Origin: Sabellastarte sp. h YS-2021
Taxonomy: Eukaryota; Annelida; Polychaeta; Sabellida; Sabellidae
NCBI GenBank assembly: GCA_964017235.1
Contig: OZ024927.1
Coordinates: 29,469,160-29,533,159 of the forward strand
DNA length: 64,000 bases
Direction: 5' to 3'
Shown: piece by piece, positions 1 through 59,007 of the stretch
Position numbering within the stretch: position 1 is the stretch's first letter
How the letters are laid out: each line of letters begins with the position of its first letter
Notes under the pieces: generated by a model
What the model was told of the DNA's origin: nothing
The model's database searches: none
The model's input: only the letters and a program-made list of their open reading frames with translations
Made by a program: the position numbers and the translations under genes

Positions 1-410
1 TTCAAGCACCCTACGTTTACGCCATTAAGACCTTGCTCTTGTAACACACACACATTTGAATTATCTGCAGAAGTACAACTAGCTGAGTAGTCAGATACAT
101 CATGGTTTACGGTACCAGTAATATTTTGCATGTTATCAACATTTGAAACACAAACAATAGTATCATTAGTATCACTACAAAATTTACTCTGCTGGGCCCT
201 AGATTCACTACGATGAAAAACTCTAGATCTGACAGCCAGACGTTTATTTCTCTGAGCAATTTTTGACCTGGTTTTATCTCCAATTACAGGAATAGTACCT
301 TTATTTGTAAATCTAGAATGAAAGAAAATTTTAGTTAGAATACAATCGCCTTGGCTGTCAAAGCTACATGAGTCTGTGCCTACTGATCGTTTTTTCCTTT
401 CATTTGTTTT
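1..410 (-). CDS. Second ORF (pol-like N-terminus) of a retroelement, cut by window edge
   Basis: This minus-strand frame is open from position 410 to the window edge (about 136 codons) and lies in the -1 frame relative to the gag-like ORF that ends at 380. It has no AUG for roughly 80 codons after the overlap, so it is probably made by frameshifting at 389-395 rather than by its own start. The translation is basic at first (a KTRSKIAQRNKR stretch, then VFHRSESRAQQSKFC). It ends at the edge with GLNGVNVGCL, which resembles the start of an apurinic-type endonuclease domain in LINE ORF2 proteins (consensus like LNVGCLNVRSL). The catalytic part would lie left of position 1 and cannot be seen. The LINE assignment rests on that single motif. 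A DIRS- or LTR-type element is the alternative. Confidence 0.5.
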
Positions 411-1519
411 CTATTACAAGAGGACTCTAAATGATAACAAAATCTTTTGACCATCCTGTAACAATATGCACATGCATGTTTTTGCAAAACATGCCCATCC
501 ATATGCTCGCCCTCATGTATGTAGTTGCCATTATTATAAAATTTACAAGGGACAGCTGGCTTTGAAGTACCACCCTTCTTGTCGGTTTGTGATGGATGTA
601 TTGGCCGTTGTGTGTACCTAGCCCTTATCTGATGGACCCTACTGTTATCTTTCCATGTAAGTTTACCTCTTTCCATTTCAAGCAATAGAATCTTATGGGC
701 AGATTTGGCTGTGTACCAATTAGTTTCTTGAGCATCTTGATACAATTGCTGTAAGTACATCAACATGTTTTGTCTAATTTTTGAATTTTCCTCTTCCAAT
801 ATACAACCTATAAAAGCCTGGCTAAACTGCGTAACAGTGAGGTCATCATATGACGGACATGATCTATCAGTAGAGTAACAAAATTCATGTGACCAGTTAA
901 TATCAACTCTTACATGATTTTCTTGATGTCTCACTAAACCAGACTTTAACCGTTTACCTTGCAACTCAGTTCTATCATCCTGATCCAACTCCTGGAGCCT
1001 CTTGTCCACCTGACGTCTCAGTGGTCCATTGGTCCTCAAAAATTGGGTAGAAGGTAAGACCAGATCCTCCACGACATCCTCTGTGGTCTGCGTGACTGGC
1101 GCCCAGATATCAGTGTTCGAACCCTGCACCTGCTTCCTTGTCGTAGGGGGTGGAACATACCCTCGCCTGGGTGAGGAAGACGACTGGCCAACATCACCTG
1201 AATGTCCCTGCTGCTGTGACTTCTTCACCTTCTTAAGTTCCTCATCCAAGTGTTTCAAATGCTGCAAGATCGCATCCAGCTTATCAGGAGGGGTTTCATC
1301 AGGGCCATTAGCAAGGGATTGTGGCCTAGGGGGAGATTCAACAGCAGTCTGCCCCAATGGGATGGATGAGGTGGAGGAATTGGACGCTGTCTCAGCCATA
1401 TTGGTACTCAACGTCAATGCAAATACTTGGCACAATCTACCCACTGGTAACTCGTGGGACTGGTTACATTTAAAGCAAAAAGCAAAGTCTTTAGCTCTTC
1501 TATGAGGTAAATGTCTCAT
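380..1519 (-). CDS. Gag-like ORF1 protein of a retroelement
   Basis: The frame encodes 379 residues. The longest reading begins MRHLPHRRAKDF, but a second AUG at 1397-1399 (MAETASNSS, purine at -3, G at +4) is a strong alternative start, giving a 339-residue protein. Residues ~45-135 are Ser/Pro/Gln-rich with a short charged helix (LDEELKKVKKSQQQ). A globular part follows, with SYDDLTVTQFSQAFIGCILEEE and KILLLEMERGKLTW. The C-terminus is a Cys/His cluster (CKFYNNG..H..H..H.CAYCYR..C.H...SC) that looks like a nucleic-acid-binding knuckle seen in gag-like proteins of invertebrate retroelements. The reading is uninterrupted, so the copy may be young. It would package or chaperone element RNA. 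The class of element (LINE versus tyrosine-recombinase type) is not settled here. Confidence 0.7.
   Translation of the reverse strand: MRHLPHRRAKDFAFCFKCNQSHELPVGRLCQVFALTLSTNMAETASNSSTSSIPLGQTAVESPPRPQSLANGPDETPPDKLDAILQHLKHLDEELKKVKKSQQQGHSGDVGQSSSSPRRGYVPPPTTRKQVQGSNTDIWAPVTQTTEDVVEDLVLPSTQFLRTNGPLRRQVDKRLQELDQDDRTELQGKRLKSGLVRHQENHVRVDINWSHEFCYSTDRSCPSYDDLTVTQFSQAFIGCILEEENSKIRQNMLMYLQQLYQDAQETNWYTAKSAHKILLLEMERGKLTWKDNSRVHQIRARYTQRPIHPSQTDKKGGTSKPAVPCKFYNNGNYIHEGEHMDGHVLQKHACAYCYRMVKRFCYHLESSCNRKQMKGKNDQ
389..395 (-). promoter_or_regulatory. Candidate -1 ribosomal frameshift site A_AAA_AAC
   Basis: On the minus strand the gag-like frame reads GGA AAA AAC GAT CAG TAG. The heptamer A AAA AAC is in the correct X_XXY_YYZ phase, and a -1 slip gives AAA AAA CGA TCA GTA GGC, which is the open second frame. 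The zero-frame stop follows only three codons later. The -1 frame is closed just upstream (TAG at 411-413) and the overlap contains no AUG. A stimulatory stem-loop downstream was not modelled. Confidence 0.6.
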
Positions 1520-2160
1520 ACTATTGCCTAAAAACTAATAAAAAAAAAACCAGGTGACTATGCACCACAAACCAACTAGTAAGGTGAACACTGATCTCGA
1601 CTCGAAGCAATGCACTGACACAAATGGTTACTCACACAGCTAGTGCCCCAGCTAGCCTGCATTACTGATAGCAATGGTGCTCACACAACAGTCGCATTAG
1701 CCAACTGCTTCAGCATTGACACATGAGTGTCCCCTCACCACGAAAGCACCAACAGTTACATGTGTCAACTGTATCACCACTATTGACAAACCGCTTGTCA
1801 ATCTAGAAACACAATCTGACAACCACACTGGTCAGTTGTCCCCAAGTATCAGTGCAAAGCCATTAGAACAGCAACTGCAGCTGTTCGAACCCACACAGCA
1901 GTGTCTCGATCCACCCTGTTACCAGTTAGTCTCTCAGATACACGGGAGAGGTTCCCAGCATAATCATCGCCCATATATCAGAAAGGCACAACATTTTAAA
2001 AACTACACCAACTTTTATACACTAGCCCAGACAGTACCAAGGCCTGAAATCTAAATATAACTGAATTTTTGACATAAAATCACTCACTTTCAATCAACCT
2101 TCACATTCACCTAATTTGCATAAAATCACTCATGAGTGCACCAAGGGTGGGCAGGTCACC
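1520..2160 (-). other. Probable 5' leader region of the retroelement
   Basis: The sequence upstream of the gag-like ORF is richer in C and less AT-rich than what follows after ~2160, as expected for the 5' untranslated part of the same minus-strand element. A 112-codon plus-strand frame at 1716-2054 has a low-complexity Thr/Pro/Gln composition and is taken as chance. No terminal repeat or target duplication could be placed, so the right boundary is approximate. Confidence 0.3.
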
Positions 2161-2595: not shown

Positions 2596-3560
2596 AGACC
2601 TCCACCAGTGAGTTTGGTGAGCTTCTGAAAATGTGGGAGTTATTTTTTTGGTATCCAGAATATGATCCTGGGCCCGTATTCATAAAGGGTCTTAGACTTA
2701 CCAGGTCTTAGGCTTAAATCCAGTCTTTAAGTTAAGACTTTTGTCTCAGCTAAGTTTTGTCTTAAAACCGTATTCACAAAGGGTGACTTAGCTAAGTCCA
2801 AGATTATCAAATAACCACAGTGGTTTTCTGTGTCATGTGACCTTTCTTTTCTATTCAAACTATACTATTGGTGACATATATCCTTCATTTAATGCATTTT
2901 ATCTAAGGAAAAGTGCTGTTTTGAAATGGAAAACCTTATTACCACATATAAACTTCCAAAGACTGCTTTAGTGAGGTGTTCTGTATAATTATTCTTTATT
3001 TACCGCCATTTCAAATTTTGAAGTGGAGAAAAGTTTATGGCGGCCTTATTTAAGTCCTCTTTACAAAATTTAAGCCCACTACTAACCAGTCTTAAAGTTG
3101 AGCCCTTGGCTAAGCCTAAGGCCAGTCTTAAATTCTTTGTGAATACCACTAAGCCAAAGACAAAAGTCTTAGCAGGTTTTGGGCAGAAACTCGAGACAAA
3201 AGTCTCAACTTTAAGCCTAAGCCCTGGCTAAAACCTTTTGTGAATACAGGCCCAGGTTTTTCCCAAAATTTTTTTTCACCTCTTTGGCCATGACATACCC
3301 ACATTTAAATGTTCATGAAGATCCAGTGTGTACTGTTGTGAAATGAGAAAGCTAAACCATTGACAATACATGGAAAATGGTACCTTCAAAAATTTGGGAT
3401 TATTTTGTATCCAGAATATATTCCAGATCATTCCTGGAATTTAAAAATGTCTTTGTTTGATCAGACCCTACCAACATGAAAAAATTCAGGAAGATCCATT
3501 CATAACTCCTGGGGTTATCATGAGCACAAACACACAGACAAAGATTTGCCTCGACATTGT
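2596..3560 (+). repeat. Old dispersed repeat (family R1), split by a MITE
   Basis: The left part (agcacagacctccaccag..) and the part after 3256 (..atccagatcattcctggaa.., ..tccattcataactcctgg.., ..cacaaacacacagacaaag) follow the same order of landmarks as the better preserved copy at 25533-25837: a gagcac..cagacctcc start, an 'atccggatca' centre, a 'tccataactttttgagtt' block, an 'acaaacagacaaa' block and a 'cttggcggaggtaat' end. The MITE at 2667-3256 sits inside it, so this copy is older. It is diverged and the end is not sharp. Confidence 0.45.
2667..3256 (+). mobile_element. MITE family M1, copy 1
   Basis: A ~590 bp element with imperfect terminal inverted repeats: the left end CCTGGGCCCGTATTCATAAA matches the reverse complement of the right end (CCTGGGCCTGTATTCACAAA). 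The inside has many short inverted motifs built on 'aagtcttagactta' and 'ttaagcctaagcc'. The same sequence occurs inverted at 32996-33569, which proves dispersal. The 64-codon frame inside is a by-product. No transposase is present, so it is non-autonomous. Superfamily and target duplication are not resolved. Confidence 0.8.
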
Positions 3561-7511: not shown

Positions 7512-8486
7512 TAACTATATTGTACTGAACATATATAGCTGGAAATTTAAAAATTTAATTAATAAATGTATTGTTAAAACAACAAAATTGCCATGGTCTG
7601 GTGGCATTTGTGCCCATGATACTGGCTTTTCTGATGAAACTACAACAGCTACAGAGATGCTGGTCATTTTTATAAGCTAGCTAAATAGCTGGATTTAATA
7701 AATTGTTTGCGACATCCAGATCTGTCCATATGTTTGATACTACCACTCACCTTTCTTATGAATGTGAGTTTCAACACATTTTGGCCATTTTCTTCATCCT
7801 GAAAGAGAGGCCCTTGGTGGCCCTGTGGTTTGCAAATCTGGCATCTGATAACAGGCTGTCACCTCTGTGTAGGTTTGACACCCACAAGTAGCAATACTGA
7901 AGACCAGTTCTAATATTACCCTGGCTGCTGAATGGGAAGTAAAACCCTAACTTAGACTTTGATCCTCCTGGAAGAGGGACATTTTAGTGATTTTGTATGA
8001 ATAGTGCCCAAGTAGTTCTTGATCCTGTCTAAGTTACATCTCTGGTTCTTGCTTCTTATTTTATAATGAGTTTCTGAACTAAATGTATCAGCTCCTTTTC
8101 AACCCTCAAGGTTACTTAAGAGTTCTAATTAAGACTCAATATGGAAAGTTTTCAGTTTTAACAGCCATCTTGGATTTTCAGGACTTCAAAAAAAAAACAA
8201 TAGCTCAGAAATGAAAAAGAGCTATAGCCATTTTGAACTTATTTTAGTCCATACACAATTCTTATTCTGGAAGTGTCTAATATGCTTGGTTCCATTTTAA
8301 CATTACTTGACCTGTTTAAACTGTTTAACTCTGAAAAGAAACCAAAAATATGGTACAAAAATATGGTAGAAACTATACTATAGAAAATCACTGTAATAGA
8401 ATGGAAATCAAATTCTAACCAGTACTATTGCTCTGTATTTATTTTAAATTGGCCGATGAAAATATCTTTAAAATTTCATCTATCTG
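7512..8486. other. AT-rich unique sequence, no gene seen
   Basis: Only short random-like frames are present (for example 7703-7891). No repeat was recognised. Confidence 0.5.
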
Positions 8487-8744
8487 GGCGTTCACACTAT
8501 GAAATGAACCCGGGTTGACACAGATTGAACCAGATTGGAGACTAGTCTGAACGCTCACAATCCGGGTTGACATGGGTAAATCTCAACCCCACTCAAGAGG
8601 TGGATTGAAGCAGATTGAAGCAGATTGGTTCAACCCTCTTTGTAGTGTGAACCCTCTCAATCCAGGTTGACAAGGGTTGAATGTGTTGGTACTGTAACCA
8701 ATTGACTTACTGCCTTGAAGTAATTGCTTAATTTGATATGTATA
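8487..8744 (+). repeat. Left arm of an outer GTTCACACTA repeat
   Basis: It begins gggcgttcacacta and contains direct variants of 'aatccgggttgacatggg' and 'gattgaagcagattg', plus an internal tagtgtgaac. The same vocabulary occurs in reverse orientation at 14890-15006, beyond the Ginger-like element. The simplest reading is one ~740 bp MITE-like element split by that insertion. Alternatively 8487-8653, which is itself bounded by GTTCACACTA and TAGTGTGAAC, is a complete short MITE. Confidence 0.55.
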
Positions 8745-8766
8745 TGTTACAGTAAAGTTGTGTAAC

Positions 8767-8907
8767 CAGTAATTTCGCGAAATTACTGAATATTTTAGGA
8801 ATTTCGCGAAATTCCTGATTTGGTCAGTAATTTCGCGAAATAACTAAAATTTTCAGTAATTTCGCGAAATTACTGAAATATTCGAGCAGGAATTTCATGA
8901 AATTCCT
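8767..8907. repeat. Array of five AATTTCGCGAAATT palindromes
   Basis: Palindromes centred on TTTCGCGAAA lie at 8767-8788, 8797-8816, 8825-8845, 8854-8875 and (diverged, CATG centre) 8888-8907. The first is part of the terminal inverted repeat, and two more occur next to the right terminus (near 14459-14505). Subterminal palindromes of this kind could be transposase-binding sites. That role is inference. Confidence 0.8.
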
Positions 8908-9052
8908 AAATGTTATATGCAGATTAAAAGAAGACATTTTAGATTTTTATTTCACCAAATTTTTGTTTATTCATTTTGTTTGCATAACAAATAACATCAA
9001 TAGTATGAAAATACAATAGTATCAAAGAACTTTATGCACAATATCTTACGAA

Positions 9053-9330
9053 ATTTATTAAACACTCTCCACCTACAATAGTACAATACTCTGGTATACA
9101 GTTCATATATTCAATAATATTTTATATTTATTAAACACTCTCCACCTACAACAGTCTGGCATAAAAGCTCATTTAATCAATGATTTTATACTTGCAAGTT
9201 CACTGAAATTAATGAAGCACCCTCCACCTTCATAGTCTGGCATACAAGATCATTTATTCAAAAACTTGATAGTCACAATTTCACCAAAATTAATTGAACA
9301 CACTCCACCAAGAACAGCCAGAAATACAAG
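9053..9330. repeat. Degenerate tandem repeat, ~73-82 bp, four units
   Basis: The block attaaacactctccacctac recurs with CTCCACC at 9067, 9140, 9222 and 9303, each followed by a diverged 'agtctggcatacaag' and a T/A-rich stretch. It lies in the Ginger-like element just downstream of the Cys-rich remnant, so it is probably part of that element's 3' untranslated region. Confidence 0.6.
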
Positions 9331-9331
9331 T

Positions 9332-9439
9332 TTATTTATTTTTACACTTTAAACTGCCATGACATCTGCTGTTACACAACACTTTTTCCTTGTTGCTTGT
9401 ACATTGCATTGAAGCACAAGTACACTTCTTGAACCCTCG
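9332..9439 (-). pseudogene. Cys-rich C-terminal tail of a KRBA2/Ginger-like integrase, broken
   Basis: The minus-strand frame of 35 codons ends at a TAA at 9332-9334. Its pattern is C-x-C-x5-C-x8-C-x3-C-H-x4-C, ending CKNK. This matches the terminal CXC-like cluster of KRAB-A-domain-2-like/Ginger integrases (typically CxC..C..KRC.C......C...CH....CxNK); one middle Cys pair is missing here (NKEKVLCN where KRCxC is usual). A TGA at 9440-9442 cuts the frame from anything upstream, and the Harbinger insertion begins only ~30 bp further on. The integrase core is absent from the window. It is a relic, not a functional gene. Confidence 0.6.
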
Positions 9440-9484
9440 TCATATAACCCTGGTCTTATAACACCATATGTGGGTGTTCCACCA

Positions 9485-10030
9485 CACGACTAAGGCTCCC
9501 GATTAAGGGTTTTGGGGGGTCGGTTTGAAATATTTGCTTAGTCCCAGGCTTCCTGTAAGGATCGGTTGTGGTCGGTTGAGGCCGTGTGAAAAATCAAACA
9601 TGTTTGATATTTCACACGACTACAACCGATTCCTATTTCCCGCCGTCAACAAAATGTCCAGTCCCAGGCGTCCTGAGGCCTCCTCAGACCCAAATTTACA
9701 CAGTCGTGTGTTGTCCCAGGCGTCCTGCGACCCTTAGTCCCAGACCTCCCTAGCTTAGTCCCAGGCGGCCGGTTGTTAATCCCAGACTCAAATATGATGC
9801 GTATGAATTTCATGCGTCTGAAAGTGAGTCGATTTCATTAGTCCCCGGAAGCCTCAGACCGTCTGCGGTGTCCTGCGACCCAAAAATCAAGGTCTGGGAC
9901 TAAGAACCGACTAAGGGTAACCGACCCTAACCGATCCAAACCGGCCTCCCCAGGACGCCTGGGACCACGCATTTTCAGTCTGCGGCGTCCTGAGGACGCC
10001 CCAGGCGGCCTGGGACTAACAACCGATTAA
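9485..10030. repeat. GC-rich left subterminal repeat region of the Harbinger element
   Basis: The block contains repeated short words: 'ttagtcccaggc', 'ggcgtcctgagg', 'aaccgacta' and 'cggcctgggact', in both orientations. It is much more GC-rich than the host DNA. The same words occur in 13985-14350. At 9561-9630 a ~70 bp inverted repeat has arms atcggttgt and acaaccgat around a near-perfect core (gtgtgaaa..tttcacac). Confidence 0.7.
9561..9630. repeat. Long hairpin-forming inverted repeat
   Basis: The core runs from gtgtgaaaaatcaaac through ATG to gtttgatatttcacac, with outer arms atcggttgt and acaaccgat. It could form a cruciform. It lies ~460 bp upstream of the TATA box of the plus-strand gene, within the subterminal repeats. 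Confidence 0.65.
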
Positions 10031-10088
10031 GAACCGACTGTTTTCCGCGCGTTGGAAATTAAAACGAGGCAATGAGCAGGTCTGGGAC

Positions 10089-10096
10089 TATATAAG
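10089..10096 (+). promoter_or_regulatory. TATA box of the Harbinger plus-strand gene
   Basis: TATATAAG sits at the right edge of the GC-rich subterminal block and ~174 bp upstream of the start codon at 10270. An expected transcription start ~30 bp downstream (around 10120) leaves a ~150 b leader. No upstream AUG in good context was noticed. Confidence 0.5.
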
Positions 10097-10269
10097 CGAC
10101 CGCGCACACTTTGTCATTGTTACTGACTGTTTGGCTACTGAGAGACGTGTGTCACTGATTTGTAGGGGTTTTCAATTTTTATTTTACATTTTATATACTT
10201 GAGCTTAAGGCAAATTTCACAGTTAGGAGACACATTTTACTATTTTTTTATTATTTTGTCGACTGGATC

Positions 10270-11493
10270 ATGAGAAAAGAGAAAGGAGGGAAGAGAGGAA
10301 GGAAAAAGATGGATGAGAGGGAGAAGGAAAGTCAAGTAGAGGAGAGGAGTGAAGTTATTACAGAAGAAGGAAGTGAGAGGAGAGAGGAGGAGGAGATTCA
10401 GGAAGATCCAGCTATTGGGGAAGCTGTGGCAGAAGAAGAAGAGAGGTGTGAGGAAGATCCGGAGTGCCATTCTTCAGCCAAGAGAGCCAGGGTGTGTGCC
10501 ACTTTTACAGACAGTGATGAAGTTTCCATTGTAGAATTCGTCAAGCTGCACCCTGAACTGTATGACAAGGAACATTCACGTTTCCACGACAGGAACAGAA
10601 GAGAGGCTCTCTGGGCAGAAATATCTGCAGAACTTAAGCTCCAGCCCTTTGATGTGAGAAGGTGGTTTGAGTCCCAGCGAACCCGTTATGGAAAGCTGTC
10701 TAAGCTCCAATCTGGCCAAGCCCCGAGGGAGATGACCAAGAGACAGTCCTGGGTCTACCAACAGATGGGTTTTCTTAAAACCCACATCAGAAGAAAGGGG
10801 GCCAATAGAAGTTCAGGTTTTGAGGCCAGTCCAAATACCAGCAAGCAGGACGAATCACGTGGGTCAACTACTGACACAGAACACCTCGAGTCCAGTGTCC
10901 TGAGGGAGAGGAGTCAGTCCATCATTACATCAACACCCGTTTCAACTACAGACTCCAAGATTCTCGAACACTTTGAGCAGATGAGGACACTTATCTCAGG
11001 TTTTCTGCATCAGAAGTCAGACAGGCAGCCCTTCTTTGACTACGTGGCATCAGAGGCCGAAAAGATGACTCAAGAAGAATTTGAAGAATTAAAGGGCAAG
11101 ATATTCAGAGATATCGAAAATATTAAGAGTAACCGCAGACGTCAGCCATTGCCCAGAAGATCAGCCACTGTTACCACGGAGTCCCAGAGGGTCGGCCTAC
11201 TGCCAACAACCACTCCACAGGTGTCAAGTTCCACTCAAGCAGCAGCTAGCAGCAGTTTTGTGTACTATACACCAAGCCCCATTGGCTTCAGCAACCCTAC
11301 ATCTGTCCTAACTGTACAGGACGAAGGGAGCAGACACAATCTGAGTGGAATCTTAAGCCAGCTACCAGATCTGACATCAACACAGATCGTCGAGCAGCCT
11401 CAGCAGCAGCAGCAGCAGCAACAACCGCAGCAGCAGCTCTTTACTATCACCACTTCAGCACCGCCTCAACAGCAGCAGCAGCCTCCTCAGTAG
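10270..11493 (+). CDS. Harbinger accessory DNA-binding protein (MADF/Myb-like)
   Basis: 407 residues in a single open frame. Residues 1-65 are a highly charged Lys/Arg/Glu tail. Residues ~77-176 form a MADF/SANT-like trihelical domain: FTDSDEVSIVEFVKLHPELYD, REALWAEISAEL, RRWFESQRTRYGKL, then KRQSWVYQQMGFLKTHIRR, with the conserved aromatic positions W115, W132 and W161. The middle is Ser/Thr-rich with an acidic helix (ASEAEKMTQEEFEELKGKIF), and the C-terminus is poly-Gln. In animal Harbinger transposons the second gene encodes a Myb/SANT-like or MADF protein that brings the transposase to the nucleus and to the element ends. The neighbouring convergent transposase and shared subterminal repeats support that role. 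The start was chosen as the first AUG of the frame; M14 (MDEREKE) is an alternative. Confidence 0.8.
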   Translation: MRKEKGGKRGRKKMDEREKESQVEERSEVITEEGSERREEEEIQEDPAIGEAVAEEEERCEEDPECHSSAKRARVCATFTDSDEVSIVEFVKLHPELYDKEHSRFHDRNRREALWAEISAELKLQPFDVRRWFESQRTRYGKLSKLQSGQAPREMTKRQSWVYQQMGFLKTHIRRKGANRSSGFEASPNTSKQDESRGSTTDTEHLESSVLRERSQSIITSTPVSTTDSKILEHFEQMRTLISGFLHQKSDRQPFFDYVASEAEKMTQEEFEELKGKIFRDIENIKSNRRRQPLPRRSATVTTESQRVGLLPTTTPQVSSSTQAAASSSFVYYTPSPIGFSNPTSVLTVQDEGSRHNLSGILSQLPDLTSTQIVEQPQQQQQQQQPQQQLFTITTSAPPQQQQQPPQ

Positions 11494-12716
11494 CCATCCA
11501 GTCAGGGCGGGTCTTTGACCTGCCAGGCCCTTTTCAGGGCCACCAAATCTTCCAAAAACAATTATTCAGCTACGTGTTCTTCCAATTCCCCTCCCAAAAC
11601 AAAAAAGTTCAGTACAAATACTTATCACAAGAAAAAAAAAATTAAAGTCCAACACTTACACCACCCCAAACATGAAACAAATAACCCATGGTACTACACA
11701 TAACCAAAAAGGCCACATAAAAAAAATATTAAAAGTAACTCCCAATATGGCCATTAATCAGCCCATTTTTAGATTAAAATCCATGGGATAGTTTAAAATC
11801 TGTAATTGAAAAGTCCAACACTTGCACCTTCCCTAGAGTTAAAAGGCATAATTACATACTTACCAACCCACAAACAGACAAACCCAATACCAAACATAAC
11901 CCCCAAATAACAAACCCAGTACCAAACCTAATACCCAACTACCCCCCAAAAAACCAACCCCAGTAACCACCAACCAACAAACACCCAAACCCAAAAGTAA
12001 ATAGAACCCATGCCAATGAACTGACAAACTATTTAGCAAACACAATCCCCCATTATTGAAAGCAAAACTAGTTCCATGGTTATATTTTCCAAATTTTTGT
12101 GATTAGAAATGAATATTTAAAATTGAATATTTCCATAAAAAAATTTCTGCTACAAATAAGTTTCCCAGCCATGAAAAAAGAAAAATGTTTAAATTATGAT
12201 GTGGATTTGAAAATATATAAAATAATAATTCAATTTAGGATATTATGTGTGACTTTGTGTTTCGCTTTTGTTTAACAGTGGGTTTGTCTGTTTGTTGGGT
12301 GAGTAAGTTGTGTTTGTCTGTTTGTCTGTCTGAACAAGTTATGTTTGGCATGGGGTTTGTCTGTTTGTCTGTCTCAACAAGTTATGTTTGGCATGGGGTT
12401 TCTCTGTTTGTCCGTCTCAACAAGTTATGTTTGGCATGGGGTTTGTCTGTTTGTCCGTCTCAACAAGTTATGCTTGGCATGGGATTTGTCTGTTTGTCCA
12501 CATAGCTGATTAATTGTTTTTGGAATATTTGGTAGTCCTGAAAAGGACTGTTATAGTTAGTCCTGAAAAGGACTGTTTACTGCAACAGGACTTATATTCT
12601 GCCATCTTGCCAGGCCACTGCTCCCTCATTATTGAAGTAGTCCTTCAGGTAATCCCTCTGTCTTTTGGCCTCTCTAGCAGGGTTTCTGTCTTGGCCACCA
12701 CCAGCAGCACCACCAA
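11494..12716. other. Intergenic stretch between the convergent Harbinger genes
   Basis: About 1.2 kb without a gene. It holds an A/C-rich stretch (11640-12010), a 43 bp minisatellite (12312-12499) and two copies of agtcctgaaaaggact at 12535-12576. Both genes must terminate here, but no pair of polyadenylation signals was convincingly placed. Confidence 0.5.
12312..12499 (+). repeat. 43 bp minisatellite, 4.4 copies
   Basis: Units start at 12312, 12355, 12398 and 12441, with a partial fifth at 12484. Each combines a (tctgtttg)-like stretch with caacaagttatgtttggcat. A few base changes separate the units. The 86-codon frame across it (12245-12505) is a by-product of a repeat length that is not a multiple of three but happens to lack stops. 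Confidence 0.85.
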
Positions 12717-13898
12717 TCAATCCACAATCACCAGGCACATCATCATCATCATCATCCCCCCCGGCTGCTGACCAGCAGGTTGACCTTGATACTGGCTTCT
12801 GAGTATATTGTGCAGAACCACACAGGTCATGACCACTTCTCTAACTGTTTCTGGGGGTAGTTCAATGGTGGTCCTCATGACTCTAAATCTTGACACAAGG
12901 ATGCCATAAGCGTTCTCCACAACTCTCCTGCCCCTTGATATTCTGTAGTTGGCAATCCTTTCCTCCCTTGTTAACAGCCTTCTGTCATAGGGTTTCATGA
13001 GCCAGGTCTTCAGGGCAAAGGCATCATCTGCCAAAATGAAGTAGGGGACATCTCTACCACCCTGTGTTATAGGAGCTGGGTCAGGGAAGCCTATCCTGCC
13101 ATCTTCAATCCTCCTCTTCAGCTGAGAGGCATTAAATATCTGGGCATCTGAGCAAGACCCTTCTGTACCCACATCCACCCATCTGAATTTGTACTGCCCA
13201 TCTACCAAGGCCAACATGACAAAGGAAAAGAACCCCTTGTAGTTGTGGTAGAGGGCTCCAGAGTTCTTGGGTTTCTTCAGGGCCACATGCTTTCCATCCA
13301 GGGCTCCCAGGGCATGTGGAACATTCCACCTGATCCTGAATTCCCTTTCCAGTTCTTTCCACTCATCTGGAGTAGTAGGACATTTGAGGTACTCTCTGGT
13401 GAACTCATCCTGGATGGCCCTGCAGACCTCTGGTAGAAACTTGGAAATGGTGGATCTGCCAACCCTGAACTGACAGGATAATGATGTGTATGACTCTCCA
13501 GTGGCCAGATATCTGATGGTGAGGGCTAACTTCTCCCCAACACTGATAGGAGCTCTGTAGTTGGTGGCCTGCCTGGCTAGACGTGGTTCCAGTCTGGTCT
13601 TCATCATTTCAAAGAATTCTGGGGTCATCCTCATGTAGTTGGTGAATCCTGGAATGTCTGTGGCATACAGATCAGCCATAATGTTGTGGTAGGCCCCCCT
13701 CTCCTCTCTCTGCAGTAGCCATGGCCTGACCCACATGTTGTGCCTTCTTCTAGGTCTCTGTATGGGTGCTGGTGGTGCTGGTGGTGGTGGTTGCTGTGCT
13801 TGACGTAAAAAATGGAAATACATGATTATTTGTAACTGAATAAAAACCAAAAAAGCCCTAAGTTGTTGTTGAATCTGTCTTCCATTAAAAGGTGGCAT
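12717..13898 (-). CDS. PIF/Harbinger transposase (HARBI1-like, DDE_Tnp_4)
   Basis: 393 residues, uninterrupted. Residues 1-55 are a Gln/Pro-rich, basic leader. Residues 56-110 carry the family N-terminal block (WVRPWLLQREERGAYHNIM, MTPEFFEMMKTRLEP). Residues 117-161 are a helix-turn-helix (GEKLALTIRYLATGESYTSL, VGRSTISKFLPEVC). The catalytic domain follows: GALDGKHV (D201), LYHNYKGFFSFVMLALVD, GSCSDAQIF (D251), FILADDAFAL (D291/D292) and RRVVENAYGIL (E328), so the acidic residues of the DDE set are all present, with ~35 residues between the second Asp and the Glu. The C-terminus is low complexity (six Met from a CAT/ATG microsatellite). The enzyme cuts and pastes its own element. The length is normal for the family, so this copy may be active. 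Confidence 0.93.
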   Translation of the reverse strand: MPPFNGRQIQQQLRAFLVFIQLQIIMYFHFLRQAQQPPPPAPPAPIQRPRRRHNMWVRPWLLQREERGAYHNIMADLYATDIPGFTNYMRMTPEFFEMMKTRLEPRLARQATNYRAPISVGEKLALTIRYLATGESYTSLSCQFRVGRSTISKFLPEVCRAIQDEFTREYLKCPTTPDEWKELEREFRIRWNVPHALGALDGKHVALKKPKNSGALYHNYKGFFSFVMLALVDGQYKFRWVDVGTEGSCSDAQIFNASQLKRRIEDGRIGFPDPAPITQGGRDVPYFILADDAFALKTWLMKPYDRRLLTREERIANYRISRGRRVVENAYGILVSRFRVMRTTIELPPETVREVVMTCVVLHNILRSQYQGQPAGQQPGGMMMMMMCLVIVD

Positions 13899-13942
13899 CC
13901 TGGTGTGTTCCTAGAAAAGCAATGATGATTAGATCGCAAATT

Positions 13943-13955
13943 TTATATATATATA
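13943..13955 (-). promoter_or_regulatory. TATA box of the transposase gene
   Basis: On the minus strand TATATATATATAA lies ~45-57 bp upstream of the transposase start codon (13898), which would give a very short leader. It adjoins the right GC-rich subterminal repeat block. Confidence 0.4.
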
Positions 13956-13984
13956 CCCAGAAAATCCAGCAACTTTGCAAAACA

Positions 13985-14350
13985 ATAATCGGGGATCCTG
14001 GTCTGGGGAGGCCTGAGGAGGCCTGAGGAGGCCTGAGGACGCCGGTAGTTAATCGTGTGTTAGTCGGCTCTTAGTCCCAGGAGGCCTGAGGCGTCCTGGG
14101 ACCCAGTCGGTTTGTGTCCGACAGGATCGTGGTTGAAACCGACCCGAAAACTGGCTTAGTCGGTTCTTAGTCCCAGACCAGTCGGGGACTGTCTGCGGCC
14201 GCCTGAGGCGTCCTGAGGTGTCCTGAGGCGTCCTGGGGACGATCTGTTCTTAATCCCAGACTTCAGTACCGACCCAGTATTCCCGCCCATTTTTGTCTTT
14301 TTTCAACCGACTGTGCACGATTAAGGGTCGCCGACAGGATCGGGGCTTAA
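13985..14350. repeat. GC-rich right subterminal repeat region of the Harbinger element
   Basis: Tandem copies of gcctgagga(g/c) at 14008-14043, then mixed 'ttagtcccag', 'gaggcgtcctgagg' and 'aaccgac' words, mirror those at 9485-10030. The base composition is far above the local GC. The matched arrangement at both ends, just outside both genes, suggests transposase or accessory-protein binding arrays. Confidence 0.7.
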
Positions 14351-14529
14351 TCTTTTGGTGGAACAGGGGCATAAAGCATGAAATAATCTGATGAAAAGGT
14401 CAAATTTGTGTCTCTTTATATAGCCAGGAGAGGATTAATGAGAAACTTTGATACCCTAGTTCGCGAAATTCCTGAAACATTTAGTAATTTCGCGAAATTA
14501 CTGGTTACACAACTTTACTGTAACATATA

Positions 14530-14889
14530 TACCTTAATCCTTTGTTAAGCAGGAGCCCTAATTAACACAAAGGCTACTAAGATGGATTGTTGTGTGATTT
14601 CTGTATAATTGCAATTTGACTTAAAATGTTCGATTTTTGTAATAGTAGTAGGGTAGTTTAACAAGTAGAAAAATTTCAAACAATTGTAATTGGTCTGTTG
14701 CTGAAAAAGTAGTACAATCTTTAAAATATAAAATTCAACTTAAATAACTTAATAAAGTTTTTAACTTCATGATACATAACATAACATTGAGATTTTTTTT
14801 AACAACATGAAAAAAAATATTTGTCATTTAAACAATATACATGCATTACATGAATCTAAATTCAGGGGCTTTACAGTATCCAGTTTTTG
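14530..14889. other. AT-rich stretch between Ginger-like element and outer repeat arm
   Basis: No gene. If the outer repeat arms belong to one element, this would be its interior. Confidence 0.4.
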
Positions 14890-15006
14890 AGACTTTTCAA
14901 TCCAGATTACACTCTGTAGTGTGGACACTCAACTCGGATTGAGATTAATCTTTTTCAATCTGCTTCAACCCCCAATCCTTGTCAACCCGGATTGTAGTGT
15001 GAACCC
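14890..15006 (-). repeat. Right arm of the outer GTTCACACTA repeat
   Basis: It contains tagtgtggac and ends tagtgtgaaccccacc. Its reverse complement reads ggttcacactacaatccggg, followed by ttgacaaggattg and ttgaagcagattg, matching the left arm at 8487-8690 in inverted orientation. Confidence 0.55.
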
Positions 15007-16378
15007 CACCTAAATAAGGCATGAATTAATGTGTTAATATGAAAGTTTTCTTAATTAAGCGATAGAGAAAGCTAAATGATAAAGTTTGGGAGAGCTTATC
15101 AGATAGAATGGGGGATTACTACCCCCAGAGTAACTGGATTGTTTGGCTAAACTGGAAGCTTCAAAGAAACATAAGATGTTTAGAGAGTTTGAGGGTGTGA
15201 TTTGTCACTACTGAACATAATACAAAAAAAATAAATGTAGCCAATCGCAATATCTATTAAATTTGATAAATAATGGACTAAATGTTTTTTTTTAACTATT
15301 TGGTTGTGATAAAAACACTGAGACTGTGATCAATAAAAACACAAAATAAAAGGTTAAAACTTTGGTTGACACATAAAATGTGACAGTAAAATATCTTACC
15401 ATAGCTTTAAATGATACTAAAACAGTTGCAGATTTTGCTGGACAGCCTTTCTTTATATGTTATTTATTATCCACTTCGTGAATGATAAAAATGCTTTTGC
15501 TAAGTTGCTTTGAGAATAGATGCATGAGGCTGTGAAACAGGTCATTCATAATAGAGAGGTGTCAACACATTACAGCTATGATTTGTTAGTGCTTTTTACA
15601 GAAGAAACTTTTTGAACCTAATCATGACAGTTTGGAAAGAAAATGACAAAGTGGCAAGGACTGATTGAGGAAAAATGGCTGATCCTCCAACATTCATTGT
15701 ATTGGGTCATGCTTTAGTTTTACTATAAACATTACTATTTCTGCAGTATATACAGTTGTTTGAAGATTATTAAAAGATCCATTTTCATGTGCCATTTAGA
15801 TATTTAAATGATTTCAATGAGTAAAATTTCTCTTTTAAGAAAATAGAATCTGTGACATTCAGTGAATGAACCAAGAGAAACATTGTTGTCTTCCCAGCAT
15901 TACCCAGAAAACTTTACTGTGATAATATATTTATGACACTATGTTATATATCACTTCAAATTTAACTCAGTTCACATTGACTCCACAAGAGTTTTTAAAA
16001 GTTTTTTTTTGTGTTTACTGCTAATCTCTGCCAAGTATAACAGTAGGTAAGCATACTACTTCAAATGTTCTGCAGCATATAGTGTGTTGAAAGAACATAT
16101 GCATTGCAGAAAATTAATTGAAAGCTCTTCAGTTTATTTCAGCTTTCTCATGTCTGTAGTTATCAAGGGAGGGGAGAAATTTAAATTAGAAGAGGGTTAA
16201 AGTTTAAGTTACTTATGCTGAACATAAATTTGGCTTAAATGGGTGAAATCTAATACTTCTATGAATGGCAAAGATTAAATTAAATTTCTCTTATAGAGCT
16301 TTAACAGGGTATCATATTTCCAGTGTCACAAAAGGTTAAACCATTTTACATGTTTTGCTGATGCCCAACTTTGTTTGA
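15007..16378. other. AT-rich unique sequence, no gene seen
   Basis: No coding frame, RNA gene or repeat was recognised. Confidence 0.5.
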
Positions 16379-32995: not shown

Positions 32996-33569
32996 CCTGG
33001 ACCCGTATTCGCAAAAGGTCTTAGCCAGGGCTTAGACTTAAAGTTGAGACTTTTGTCTCAAGTTTCTACCCAAAAACTGCTAAGACTTTTGTCTTAGGCT
33101 TAGTGGTATTCACAAAGAATTTAAGACCGGTCTTAGGCTTAGCCAAGGGCTCAACTTTTAGACTGGTTGGTAGTGGGCTTAAATTATGTAAAGAGGACTT
33201 AAATATGGCCACCATAAACTTTTCTCCACTTCAAAATTTGAAATGGCTGTAAATAAAGTTTAATTATACAGAACACCTCAGTAAAGCAGTCTTTGGAAGT
33301 CTATATGTGGTAACAAGTTTTTCCATTTCAAAACAGCACTTTTCCTTAGATAAAATGCATTAAATGAAGGATATATGTCACCAATAGTATAGTTTGAACA
33401 GAACAGAAAACCACTGTGGTTATTTGATAATCTCCGACTTAGCGAAGTCACCCTTTTTTGAATACAGATTTAAGACAAAACTTAGCTGAGACAAAAGTCT
33501 CAACTTTAAGACCACATTTAAACCTAAGACCTGGCTAAGTCTAAGACCCTTCGTGAATACCGGCCCAGG
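32996..33569 (-). mobile_element. MITE family M1, copy 2 (inverted)
   Basis: The reverse complement of this 574 bp block aligns over its length with 2667-3256, including 'gcactttt' and the 'aatgaaggatatatgtcacc' region in the middle. Ends cctggacccgtattcgc and gaataccggcccagg are imperfect inverted repeats. The two copies differ by scattered substitutions and small indels, so they are not from a very recent burst. The minus-strand frame at 33420-33788 is a by-product. Confidence 0.8.
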
Positions 33570-41752: not shown

Positions 41753-44700
41753 TTATGTCCACCCCCCTGGGGGGTGGATATATTATTTTTGCTTTTTTCG
41801 CCGTCCGATGTCCGATGTCCGATGTCCGGCGTCCGGCGTCCGGCGTCCGATGTCCGGCGTCACGCATGGTTTCCGCTCATTTAAAGGAAAAGTATTAGAG
41901 CTATTGTCACCAAATTTGGTATGCAGGCTTATTGGGTCAGTAGCTTGCTTGGGATTGCTTTTGGCTGTTGTACCTCTTTTGCTTACTGAGTAATACTTAA
42001 GTACAGCTATTTTCAGTACCCATTGGTTTCCGTGCATTTAAGCCAAAATAATTAAAGATATTTTACTACAATTTTGAATACAAGATTGTTATGTCCATAG
42101 CTCGCTTGGTATTGCATTTGGGACTGATAGCTTTGTCAGTACATGAGTAATAGCCATTTAGGTACTTCATTGTGTATTTTCAGTACTACTTTTGAGTAAT
42201 TTGCTTCTATCTCCTTAACCGTGCGAGATAGAGCGATTTCGGCAAAATTTTCGACCCGCAGGGTATCTGAGGAGTGTACTCTTTGCAATTTTCAAAAAAT
42301 TTTCCCCTCCCCAAAAATGGCGGCCATTTTGAATTTTCGAATTTTTGCCAAAAATGGCAAAACACAAATTTGCTTCTATCTCCTTAACCGTGCGAGATAG
42401 AGCGATTTCGTCGAAATTTTCGACCCACAGGGTATCTAAGGAATGTAATATTTGCAATTTTCAAAAAAATTTCCCCTCCCCAAAAATGGCGGCCATTTTG
42501 AATTTTCGAATTTTTGCCAAAAATGGCAAAACACAAATTTGCTTCTATCTCCTTAACCGTGCGAGATAGAGCGATTTCGGCAAAATTTTCGACCCACAGG
42601 GGATCTAAAGAATGCAATCTTTGCAATTTTCCAAAAATTTTCCCCTCCCCAAAAATGGCGGCCATTTTGAATTTTCGAATTTTTGCCAAAAATGGCAAAA
42701 CACTAATTTGCTTCTATCTCCTTAACCGTGCGAGATAGAGCGATTTCGGCAAAATTTTCGACCCACAGGGTATCTAAGCAATGCAATCTTTGCAATTTTC
42801 AAAATATTTTCCCCTCCCCAAAAATGGCGGCCATTTTGAATTTTCGAATTTTTGCCAAAAATGGCAAAACACAAATTTGCTTCTATCTCCTTAACCGTGC
42901 GAGATAGAGCGATTTCGTCGAAATTTTCGACCCACAGGGTATCTAAGGAATGTAATATTTGCAATTTTCAAAAAATTTTCCCCTCCCCAAAAATGGCGGC
43001 CATTTTGAATTTTCGAATTTTTGCCAAAAATGGCAAAACACAAATTTGCTTCTATCTCCTTAACCGTGCGAGATAGAGCGATTTCGGCAAAATTTTCGAC
43101 CCACAGGGGATCTAAGGAATGCAATCTTTGCAATTTTCCAAAAATTTTCCCCTCCCCAAAAATGGCGGCCATTTTGAATTTTCGAATTTTTGCCAAAAAT
43201 GGCAAAACACTAATTTGCTTCTATCTCCTTAACCGTGCGAGATAGAGCGATTTCGGCAAAATTTTCGACACACAGGGTATCTAAGCAATGCAATCTTTGC
43301 AATTTTCAAAATATTTTCCCCTCCCCAAAAATGGCGGCCATTTTGAATTTTCGAATTTTTGCCAAAAATGGCAAAACACAAATTTGCTTCTATCTCCTTA
43401 ACCGTGCGAGATAGAGCGATTTCGTCGAAATTTTCGACCCACAGGGTATCTAAGGAATGTAATATTTGCAATTTTCAAAAAATTTTCCCCTCCCCAAAAA
43501 TGGCGGCCATTTTGAATTTTCGAATTTTTGCCAAAAATGGCAAAACACAAATTTGCTTCTATCTCCTTAACCGTGCGAGATAGAGCGATTTCGTCGAAAT
43601 TTTCGACCCACAGGGTATCTAAGGAATGCAATCTTTGCAATTTTCCAAAAATTTTCCCCTCCCCAAAAATGGCGGCCATTTTGAATTTTCGAATTTTTGC
43701 CAAAAATGGCAAAACACAAATTTGCTTCTATCTCCTTAACCGTGCGAGATAGAGCGATTTCGTCGAAATTTTCGACCCACAGGGTATCTAAGGAATGTAA
43801 TATTTGCAATTTTCAAAAAAATTTTCCCCTCCCCAAAAATGGCGGCCATTTTGAATTTTCGAATTTTTGCCAAAAATGGCAAAACACAAATTTGCTTCTA
43901 TCTCCTTAACCGTGCGAGATAGAGCGATTTCGTCGAAATTTTCGACCCACAGGGTATCTAAGGAATGTAATATTTGCAATTTTCAAAAAAATTTCCCCTC
44001 CCCAAAAATGGCGGCCATTTTGAATTTTCGAATTTTTGCCAAAAATGGCAAAACACAAATTTGCTTCTATCTCCTTAACCGTGCGAGATAGAGCGATTTC
44101 GTCGAAATTTTCGACCCACAGGGTATCTAAGGAATGCAATCTTTGCAATTTTCAAAAAATTTTCCCCTCCCCAAAAATGGCGACCATTTTGAATTTTCGA
44201 ATTTTTGCCCAAAATGGCAAAACACAAATTTGCTTCTATCTCCTTAACCGTGCGAGATAGAGCGATTTCGTCGAAATTTTCGACCCACAGGGTATCTAAG
44301 GAATGCAATCTTTGCAATTTTCCAAAAATTTTCCCCTCCCCAAAAATGGCGGCCATTTTGAATTTTCGAATTTTTGCCAAAAATGGCAAAACACAAATTT
44401 GCTTCTATCTCCTTAACCGTGCGAGATAGAGCGATTTCGTCGAAATTTTCGACCCACAGGGTATCTAAGGAATGCAATCTTTGCAATTTTCCAAAAATTT
44501 TCCCCTCCCCAAAAATGGCGGCCATTTTGAATTTTCAAATTTTTGCAAAAAATGGCAAAACACAAATTTGCTTCTATCTCCTTAACCGTGCCAGATAGAG
44601 CGATTTCGTCGAAATTTTCGACCCACAGGGTATCTAAGGAATGTAATATTTGCAATTTTCAAAAAATTTTCCCCTCCCCAAAAATGGCAGCCCTTTTGAA

Positions 44701-45096
44701 TTTTCGAATTTTTGCCCAACATGGAAAAACACAAACTGGCCTTAACCGTGCAAAATAGAGTTATTTTGTTGAAATTTTCGACCCATAGGGTATCTAAGAA
44801 ATGTACTCTTGGCAATTTTCAAAAAAATTTCCTTTTCCCAATAATGGCGGCCATTTTGAATTTTCAAATTTTTGCCAAAAATAGAAAAACAGGAATTGGC
44901 TTCTATCTTCTTAACCGTGCAAGATAGAGTGATTTCGTCAAAATTTTCAACCCAACCAATGCAAAAAGGCATGAAGCGGAAATAAATTACATCTACACTA
45001 TCAAATATTTAAGCATCATTGATATATTTTACAAATGAAACAGGGTCTTGTAAGACTACTGTACAATTTGGGCAAAAGGTTCATGGGTGGACATTA
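41753..45096 (+). mobile_element. Non-autonomous element enclosing a long tandem array
   Basis: The element 41756-45093 begins TGTCCACCC and ends GGGTGGACA, flanked on both sides by TTA (41753-41755 and 45094-45096). The head holds a hairpin, ccacccccc-T-ggggggtgg (41759-41777), followed by short tandem gtccgatgtccggc words (41803-41860). Then comes ~340 bp with two diverged 'ttggtatgcaggcttattgg'-type units, then the 169 bp array, then ~120 bp to the right end. A TTA duplication is typical of Harbinger-type MITEs, but a 9 bp terminal repeat is short, so the superfamily is open. No gene. Confidence 0.6.
42203..44972 (+). repeat. 169 bp tandem repeat, ~16.5 units
   Basis: Unit starts (gcttctatctccttaaccgt) are spaced 169-170 bp from 42203 to ~44570, with two more diverged units at ~44739 and ~44898. 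Each unit holds 'gcgagatagagcgatttcg', 'ttttcgacccacagggtatc', 'aatggcggccattttgaatt' and 'tttttgccaaaaatggcaaa'. Variants recur with a 507 bp period (for example 42384-42698 repeats at 42891-43205, and 42722-42964 at 43229-43471), showing a three-unit higher-order repeat. Outer units are more diverged than inner ones. The many frames of 74, 80 and 104 codons on both strands are by-products. Confidence 0.95.
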
Positions 45097-57154: not shown

Positions 57155-58720
57155 GGCACACACTGATTCTCGAATCCAGATTTCTGATTTCATAATCTGT
57201 GGTAGTGCTAACTATAAAAATAGAAAGATTTAAAAGTGGGGTCAGTCATATTCTAAATACTAAATCAAGTGTATTTACTGGAAAAATTAGATACCAACAT
57301 TTTGAACAAATATTCCAATGCCTCTTCTTTACACCACTTAAATCTTATTGATATCATTTTCAATTAGGCAAAGTAAGAAAGCAAATGGTCATGAAAGGAT
57401 GTGAGATAAATATGTTTACCAAGAGTAAAATGTGAAATAGTTTTCTTTCATTTAGTGGTAAAAATAATCATGCTTGATAAATACAGGCTATTTGACCCAC
57501 ATCTTTCACACGGATTGAATATATGTAAATGAATATGCTTTCAGGAAGAATATTTGACAAGTGTTCCTAAAACATTAATTATATATATTCAGAAGATCTT
57601 CGCAGAGGTGTAACCTACTATTAGATTTCTGTATTCTTTTGACCTATGTATTTAATTTCATTTACACTTTTAAGATGTTTGGGTGTCTATTCACCACTTA
57701 AAAGCACCAAAATAAAGATCTCTACGTAGATTTGTTAAAGATATTCAACATTGAGGGTTGTAAATAAGATAGCTGCAAGTGTACATTAAGAGAACAATTT
57801 ATGATATCAGCTCTGGAGAATTAAAAATCTTTTTTCTTCATCATGAATGTAAACATTGAAACCACCCTTATTATAACTCAATTTGCGGATAGTGTGTAAA
57901 ATGTTTACAATCAAATTAAGACTTAATATACATTCCCTGTCTAAAGTTTAAAGTTTTTGAATTGCTTAATACTTCATTCTAATGATAAAATATGCCATAA
58001 GTCCTGCATCGGTATCTTCTTTGAAGTCATAAATTTAATGATTTGACTATAAAGTGAATATAGGGAACACCTGAGGGAAACACACTCTCCTCACATCTTT
58101 GAGGCCAATGGTTCAAGTCTTGGACATGTATGTAAGTGAAAAAATTGGTAGCCTGTTACCAATGCCTGGTGGTTGTGCAATAAAAAAAACTTCAATAAAC
58201 AATATTTTATCAAGCAATTAGGCCAAATGAACAAAGTTTATAACAAAATAGGAAGAAATATTTTAAAAAGAGTATGAGTAGGTGATCATGATGAAGATGA
58301 ACATGTGGAAATGTGGCTGGAACTAAAAACCATCCTTATTACTTGAAAAAAATCCTGAACTGCTTAAAAATTACCTCGTTTTCTTTAAATGTCAAGGTAA
58401 AATCTGGATCAACAAATATATTATGCTTCATTTCCTTCAGCCCAGCAATTGCCCCTTACATTTTTGACCTGTAAAAGCCCAAAAGGCACAGGCTGCAGAA
58501 AAAGACTATGTACAAGAAATCAACTGCCAGAATACATCTGAGCTCTTCAGATTGTCGCTTATGAAAAAAAATAATCTAAGTCAGGTTTATTCAATTGAAT
58601 TGAAACTTTGACAGATAAAAGTGAACATTGTTACAATACATTATAAGCTGTTGAAAGCAGTGTCAAATTTAAAATCTTTTATGTCCTATCAATTTCTGGA
58701 GAATATACAGTAAGAAATTC
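57155..58720. other. AT-rich sequence, possible weak SINE head at 58070-58130
   Basis: 'ctcacatctttgaggccaat' followed by 'ggttcaagtcttgg' hints at a B box, but no A box is clear. The remainder has no recognised feature. Confidence 0.4.
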
Positions 58721-59007
58721 CAGTTAGTTAACTTGTATATTCAAGTTAGCTAACTCGTATATTCAAGTTAGTTAACTGGTATTTTCAAGTTAGTAACTTA
58801 TATATTCCAGTTACTAACTCGTATATTCCAGTTAGCTAACTCGTATATTCAAGTTAGCTAACTCGTATATACAAGTTAGTTAACTGGTATATTCAAGTTA
58901 GGTAACTGGTATTTTCAAGTTAGTAACTTGTACATTCAAGTTACTAACTCGAATATTCCAGTTATTAACTTGAATATTCAAGTTAACTAACTCGTATATT
59001 CAAGTTA
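58721..59007. repeat. 21-22 bp palindromic minisatellite, ~14 units
   Basis: Units of the form caagttag(c/t)taactcgtatatt repeat about 14 times with substitutions and one-base deletions. Each unit contains a 12 bp palindrome AGTTAGCTAACT (or AGTTAGTTAACT, or the shortened AGTTAGTAACT), so the array is also an array of small hairpins. Confidence 0.9.

Follow-up and report, generated by a model that had tools for sequence, protein, structure and literature searches.

Why would the genes of a DNA transposon end like histone genes? The question is raised by a 64,000-nt window in the genome of the sabellid annelid Sabellastarte sp. h YS-2021 (contig OZ024927.1, here C1:29469160-29533159), in which a PIF/Harbinger transposon (window positions 9469-14371) lies inside a Ginger2-like element that itself lies inside an outer repeat. 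Both Harbinger genes are followed by a stem-loop and a downstream element of the type that ends the host's own histone genes. Judging from these sequences, it is likely that the transposon mRNAs are handled as histone mRNAs by SLBP and U7. Genome searches covered the whole assembly (1.786 Gb, 647 contigs).

Histone-type 3' ends on both Harbinger genes

The Harbinger element carries a gene for a MADF (Myb/SANT-like) protein of 407 aa on the plus strand (10270-11493; Pfam PF10545, E 2e-11) and, on the minus strand, a DDE_Tnp_4 transposase with an open frame of 393 aa (12717-13898; Pfam PF13359, E 2e-31). The conserved C-terminal end of the transposase lies, together with its stop, in a different frame (12592-12756, minus strand), the shift of the C-terminal part (12595-12756) occurring at a G7 run at 12756-12762.

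When the whole window was scanned against all of Rfam, the histone 3' untranslated region stem-loop (RF00032) was found at two places only, each located 3' of one Harbinger gene and in sense to it. The match at 11521-11566 (+) scored 35.2 bits, above the gathering threshold of 34, while the match at 12554-12509 (-) scored 31.5 bits, just under it (E 1.7e-6 and 4.3e-5, respectively). On the MADF side the stem-loop itself occupies 11526-11541 (+), 32 nt past the stop codon, and is followed by the downstream element TTCCAAAAACAATTA at 11550-11564 (+). On the transposase side there are two stem-loops in tandem with the same 16 letters, the first at 12559-12574 (-) and the second at 12534-12549 (-), lying 17 and 42 nt past the stop when counted in the conserved C-terminal frame; the downstream element follows at 12511-12525 (-). 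The RF00032 match falls on the second of these, and the first, a 6-bp hairpin, had no Rfam match of its own listed. The polyadenylation-type hexamer AATAAA was absent between the two genes on either strand. A 43-bp tandem array (12312-12499) also lies between the genes, and the spacing of the stem-loops varies among copies.

The signal is shared with host histone genes

We read host genes for H1, H2A, H2B, H3 and H4. Pfam supports H1, H2A and H3, as well as a core histone for H2B; the names H4 and H2B are ones we assume from recognising the sequences by eye. The host genes carry GGCTCTTTTCAGAGCCACC and then a downstream element, either TTYCAAAAACAATTA or TTTCAAGAACTTTTA. The TTCCAAAAACAATTA block borne by both Harbinger genes is identical in all 15 letters to that of host H1 and H3, and in the relative L111 the core is that of the second host type, found in H2A and H2B. 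In five host histone genes the stem-loop is located 31-41 nt past the stop, a range that includes the MADF-side distance, and some transposon stem-loops score like that of host H3 (43.6 bits for locus L039 versus 42.9). The Harbinger genes thus share with replication-dependent histone genes the stem-loop, the ACC tail, the downstream element, the distance from the stop and a frame without introns. They differ in encoding transposition proteins, and in a stem that reads GGCCCU or AGUCCU where host histone genes have GGCUCU.

The host genome contains an SLBP gene, detected as two pieces (two exons) on contig C6 (PF15247, 56.8 and 35.9 bits). The downstream block would, from its sequence, be the site for U7. 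One place, L115, is not put forward as a U7 gene: it sits in a TTG repeat, and its duplex energies with some downstream elements are better than those of most shuffles, though not clearly so.

The signal is widespread and conserved among related Harbinger families

To what extent is the signal a property of this one copy? Among the 75 best candidate RF00032 places in the genome, 32 form a tandem array with a period of 1,932 bp, of which the one unit read encodes H1. Of the other 43, 11 are unread and the 32 read comprise 28 Harbinger-type loci, two of them (L047, L081) counted as such only through their likeness to L039 (a transposase match at 48% identity), and four histone 3' ends, one of which (L072) shows no intact frame. 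A signature of the transposon form was found 3,519 times in the genome (1,782 and 1,737 by strand) and the reversed-pattern control gave 0, whereas the strict histone form was found 39 times (control also 0), with 32 in the H1 array, six in a cluster on C2 and one, unread, on C8; both totals count signatures, not genes. Among the first 100 transposon signatures listed there were 30 pairs within 1.5 kb, every one convergent and joining a MADF-type to a transposase-type end, and 40 unpaired places.

Loci were also selected by protein rather than by RNA motif. At 30 loci picked by transposase similarity, the window's included, at least one transposase-side loop was present in all 30 and the MADF-side loop in 29 (not L022). 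Twelve loci were hand-picked from the DDE-domain list, and the signal was present at nine of them (not L103, L112 or L113). Moreover, it is kept in Harbinger families whose MADF proteins are only 27-36% identical (L068, L069, L074).

Conservation is concentrated on the signal. Across ten family representatives, mean identity from 0 to +40 nt was 0.63-0.95, with most flanking bins at 0.26-0.38 and 0.44 just upstream, although RF00032 served to find these rows and the stem-loop to anchor them, which by itself accounts for part of the conservation of the first 16 nt. Five host histone genes gave a profile of the same shape. The transposase-side profile was likewise anchored on the stem-loop; there the downstream element, lying outside the anchor, had an identity of 0.72-0.83 versus 0.31-0.50 in its flanks (13 rows). 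In an alignment made by homology from divergent or domain-chosen rows, 13 of 14 rows cover the stem-loop (L106, which has a single loop, was aligned elsewhere) and 78 of 78 cells pair. The stem also varies in a paired fashion: in L040-43, AGTTCT/AGAACT replaces AGTCCT/AGGACT.

Covariation was measured in an alignment of 31 distinct stem-loops (A1; four from histone genes). The search patterns used to gather its rows hold part of the stem constant and admit only certain letters; many rows are related, and the loop variant L069 was omitted. All 186 cells pair, a figure partly built in because these patterns favour stems that pair. Thirty cells were changed on both sides, compared with a shuffled mean of 10.6, and the covariation score was 0.434 versus 0.222, neither being reached in 500 shuffles. 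Neither pairs with double changes (3 versus 2.5) nor further pair types (5 versus 5.7) were more numerous than in shuffles. Given how the rows were gathered and how many are related, the covariation in A1 lends support and is no proof.

A proposed route through the histone mRNA pathway

The anatomy of these ends, their persistence across families, their sharing with host histone genes and the host SLBP gene were all observed directly. Cleavage, absence of poly(A), S-phase expression and a benefit to the element are what the sequences would predict. According to passages in PMC9756948 and PMC7026596, the histone pathway acts mainly in S phase, and the stem-loop with SLBP replaces the role of poly(A). 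By analogy, SLBP and the U7 snRNP would cut both Harbinger transcripts a few bases past the stem-loop, giving intronless mRNAs without poly(A) that are treated like histone mRNAs, and the two transposition proteins would be made together, mainly during DNA replication. Passages in PMC9710019 report that both proteins are required for transposition in the Harbinger elements studied, and so the same end on both genes would co-regulate them. We lean towards the broader proposal that a class of DNA transposons took over the histone mRNA pathway, with SLBP-bound, non-polyadenylated S-phase mRNAs timing transposition to replication.

Several observations weigh against handling by SLBP and U7. A search for U7 snRNA with RF00066 found nothing in the host genome, the same search being silent in its control genomes too, and a U7 pattern search returned three places, as did its reversed control, with weak folding downstream of the Sm site. 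Three ATTAAA hexamers follow the MADF gene, making polyadenylation possible there. The transposase-side RF00032 scores are below gathering (31.5, 33.1, 29.6 and 29.1 bits), the downstream element of family C is weaker on the transposase side (11-12 of 15), and a transposase-side loop was not seen in family G (L039) or in L112. Twenty distant PF13359 elements, covered over about 1.5 kb on the 3' side of the domain, all lack the signal, which rules it out as a general property of PF13359 elements; of these 20, only L096, L099 and, weakly, L098 match the window transposase. The partial circularity of the anchored profile and of pairing in A1, described above, belongs on the same side.

Could the signal be a passive relic, picked up with a histone 3' flank by an ancestral Harbinger element and carried unused since? 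In subfamily B (L059), about 31 nt of the 3' end differ from the H1 flank at a single position, as would be expected after such a capture. However, the signal stands after both genes and persists at 27-36% MADF identity while the neighbouring DNA is near chance, and the homology-aligned stems still pair, as do the variant stems of L040-43. We therefore consider an unused relic unlikely. Origin is a separate matter: the likeness of L059 to the H1 flank suggests that this end was captured from a histone gene, although such likeness could also come from a shared constraint imposed by U7. The MADF-side signal looks older than the transposase-side one, because family G shows it alone.

It is likewise improbable that the hairpins act in some other way, either by binding the MADF protein at the DNA level or as simple barriers between convergent transcripts. 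The genes do converge, and the two copies between them are inverted relative to each other, yet the likeness to histone signals goes beyond a mere hairpin and takes in the loop, the ACC tail and the downstream element. Each copy also reads in the same sense as its own gene, and family G has the MADF-side signal only. A chance match to an RNA motif that is short, and whose transposase-side matches are below gathering, can be set aside as extremely improbable given the E values in the window, the 0 of 20 other elements and the 3,519 signatures against none in the reversed control.

In the ends of its genes, the window element differs from what has been described for its superfamily. Passages in PMC9710019 and PMC9179366 give PIF/Harbinger elements a DDE transposase, a MADF/Myb gene and a 3-bp duplication, all of which it shares, whereas the histone-type stem-loop and downstream element on both genes set it apart; the word 'stem-loop' does not occur in the texts of either paper. 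A 2019 paper states, in passages available from PMC7026596, that histone mRNAs are the sole known eukaryotic mRNAs that are not polyadenylated. Among the papers listed by our literature search, none dealt with a DNA transposon that carries histone stem-loops, although this search, being word-based and confined to open-access PMC, is weak evidence of absence. As far as searches reach, histone-type ends on transposon genes are undescribed, and they are surprising.

If the proposal is correct, this transposon family is a non-histone user of the histone mRNA pathway with the whole signal on both genes, and it shows a way for a cut-and-paste element to tie its activity to S phase, replication being when such an element can gain copies. 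RNA-seq on poly(A)-selected material would capture its mRNAs poorly. By signature, transposon signals outnumber the histone form about 90 to 1 (3,519 versus 39), and they could compete with histone mRNAs for SLBP and U7. The coupling of a transposon to the cell cycle becomes testable by standard SLBP and histone-processing assays, and the natural stem and downstream-element variants provide material for studying SLBP and U7 specificity.

Three nested layers and their order of insertion

An earlier sequence-only reading of this DNA had proposed a three-layer nest, built in the order outer repeat, Ginger-like element, Harbinger. Genome searches bear out both the nest and the order, because sites empty of the Ginger-like element and of Harbinger exist in the same genome. 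The outer repeat (about 8484-8744 and about 14530-15010; net length about 742 bp) was represented by 40 scored copies for each arm (searched as 8481-8744 and 14526-15012). The arms adjoin in 18 other places, nine of them exact fits with a single TATA and nine off by a few bases. The outer element of about 742 bp therefore exists without the Ginger-like insertion, close to the 740 bp that had been predicted, and contiguous arms in 18 places rule out that the arms are separate elements. GTTCACACTA is present in the left outer arm in both orientations.

The Ginger2-like element is split into a left part with its terminal inverted repeat (TIR) and palindromes (8745-9468) and a right part with the other TIR (14372-14525). 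As the sequence-only reading held, the TIR is, by reading, perfect over its first 43 nt, and TATA is duplicated at 8741-8744 and 14526-14529; including the duplication, the 70-nt arms (8741-8810 and 14460-14529) are 96% complementary. There are 40 scored copies in the genome, seven of which were read besides the window copy. In three of the seven (L003, L004, L008) window base 9468 directly adjoins 14372 with a 2-nt overlap, exactly at the Harbinger junction; three (L002, L005, L006) gave no alignment across it, and in L007 other sequence separates the two parts. The layers thus occur apart rather than always together.

The label 'Ginger-like' proved apt for the ends and target and less so for coding capacity. 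Published Ginger2 elements have TGTNR ends, a 4-bp duplication and an RTATAY target (passages in PMC2836005). The window element has TGTTA ends, a TIR of 66 nt, within the range of about 50-180 bp, and a 4-bp duplication in RTATAY at the window locus; L004 lacks the leading R. The four copies with both ends are 927-1,953 bp long with TATA on both sides in all four. Unlike Ginger2, the window-family copies read contained no integrase-like transposase, the longest frames in the four complete copies being 64-86 aa, and the window copy is a shortened, non-coding derivative. Because no transposase was found, we name the middle layer Ginger2-like and non-autonomous rather than a member of Ginger2. 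Tandem palindromes CAGTAATTTCGCGAAATTACTG with a 29-bp period are located in and beside its TIR (8767-8907).

The Harbinger layer has the hallmarks of its superfamily, namely a DDE_Tnp_4 transposase, a MADF second gene and a 3-bp target-site duplication. Its ends, TGTGGGTGTTCCACCA and TGGTGGAACAGGGGCA, are 16 bp long and match at 12 of 16 positions by reading, with further subterminal inverted repeats; PIF/Harbinger TIRs are usually 25-50 bp (passages in PMC9179366). An identical TWA stands on both sides in seven of nine sister copies with both ends (L010 and L021 differ), a tenth left-end stretch (L058) having yielded no end. The window copy is flanked by ATA on the left and TAA on the right, one base off compared with the empty target CACCATAAAGC present in L003 and L008.

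From 22,211 first-look candidates we scored 105 Harbinger copies by their transposase, the window's included; the others are 97-99% identical to it in protein, and by hand count frames of at least 435 aa are present in 70 of the 105. Judging from these sequences, the element is recently amplified. Among best-scored copies of each layer, identity to the window copy was 85-97% for the outer repeat, 84-98% for the Ginger-like element and 97.6-99.2% for Harbinger DNA (29 copies), which fits the order outer, Ginger-like, Harbinger. Harbinger had been described as complete, apparently intact and the youngest layer; its placement and youth stand, but the frame break at the G7 run means that the window copy is not fully intact. 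Taken alone, the nest is of modest interest.

Searches further afield returned little. The transposase had no match in a PDB sequence search and the MADF protein had two weak, unrelated-looking ones only (E 0.11 and 0.14). Transposase relatives were absent from virus and prokaryote contig collections, and the Ginger-like TIR and stem-loop patterns from the virus collection, results that say nothing about other animals. At L044 (2127-3046) a window-family Harbinger end, 98% identical, lies just past a MADF gene that is older and belongs to a different family, an apparent nest.

Other features of the window

Four further features were noted. A satellite-like tandem array at 42198-44954 has a period of 169 bp and 16.4 copies with 94% matches, and a nested tandem repeat at 58717-59008, with units of 22, 108 and 130 bp, is rich in palindromic AAGTTAGCTAACT. 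A 590-bp repeat is present as an inverted pair at 2667-3256 and 32996-33569 (90% identical). Finally, a 384-aa open frame at 380-1534 (-) encodes a candidate retroelement protein, recognised by eye only.

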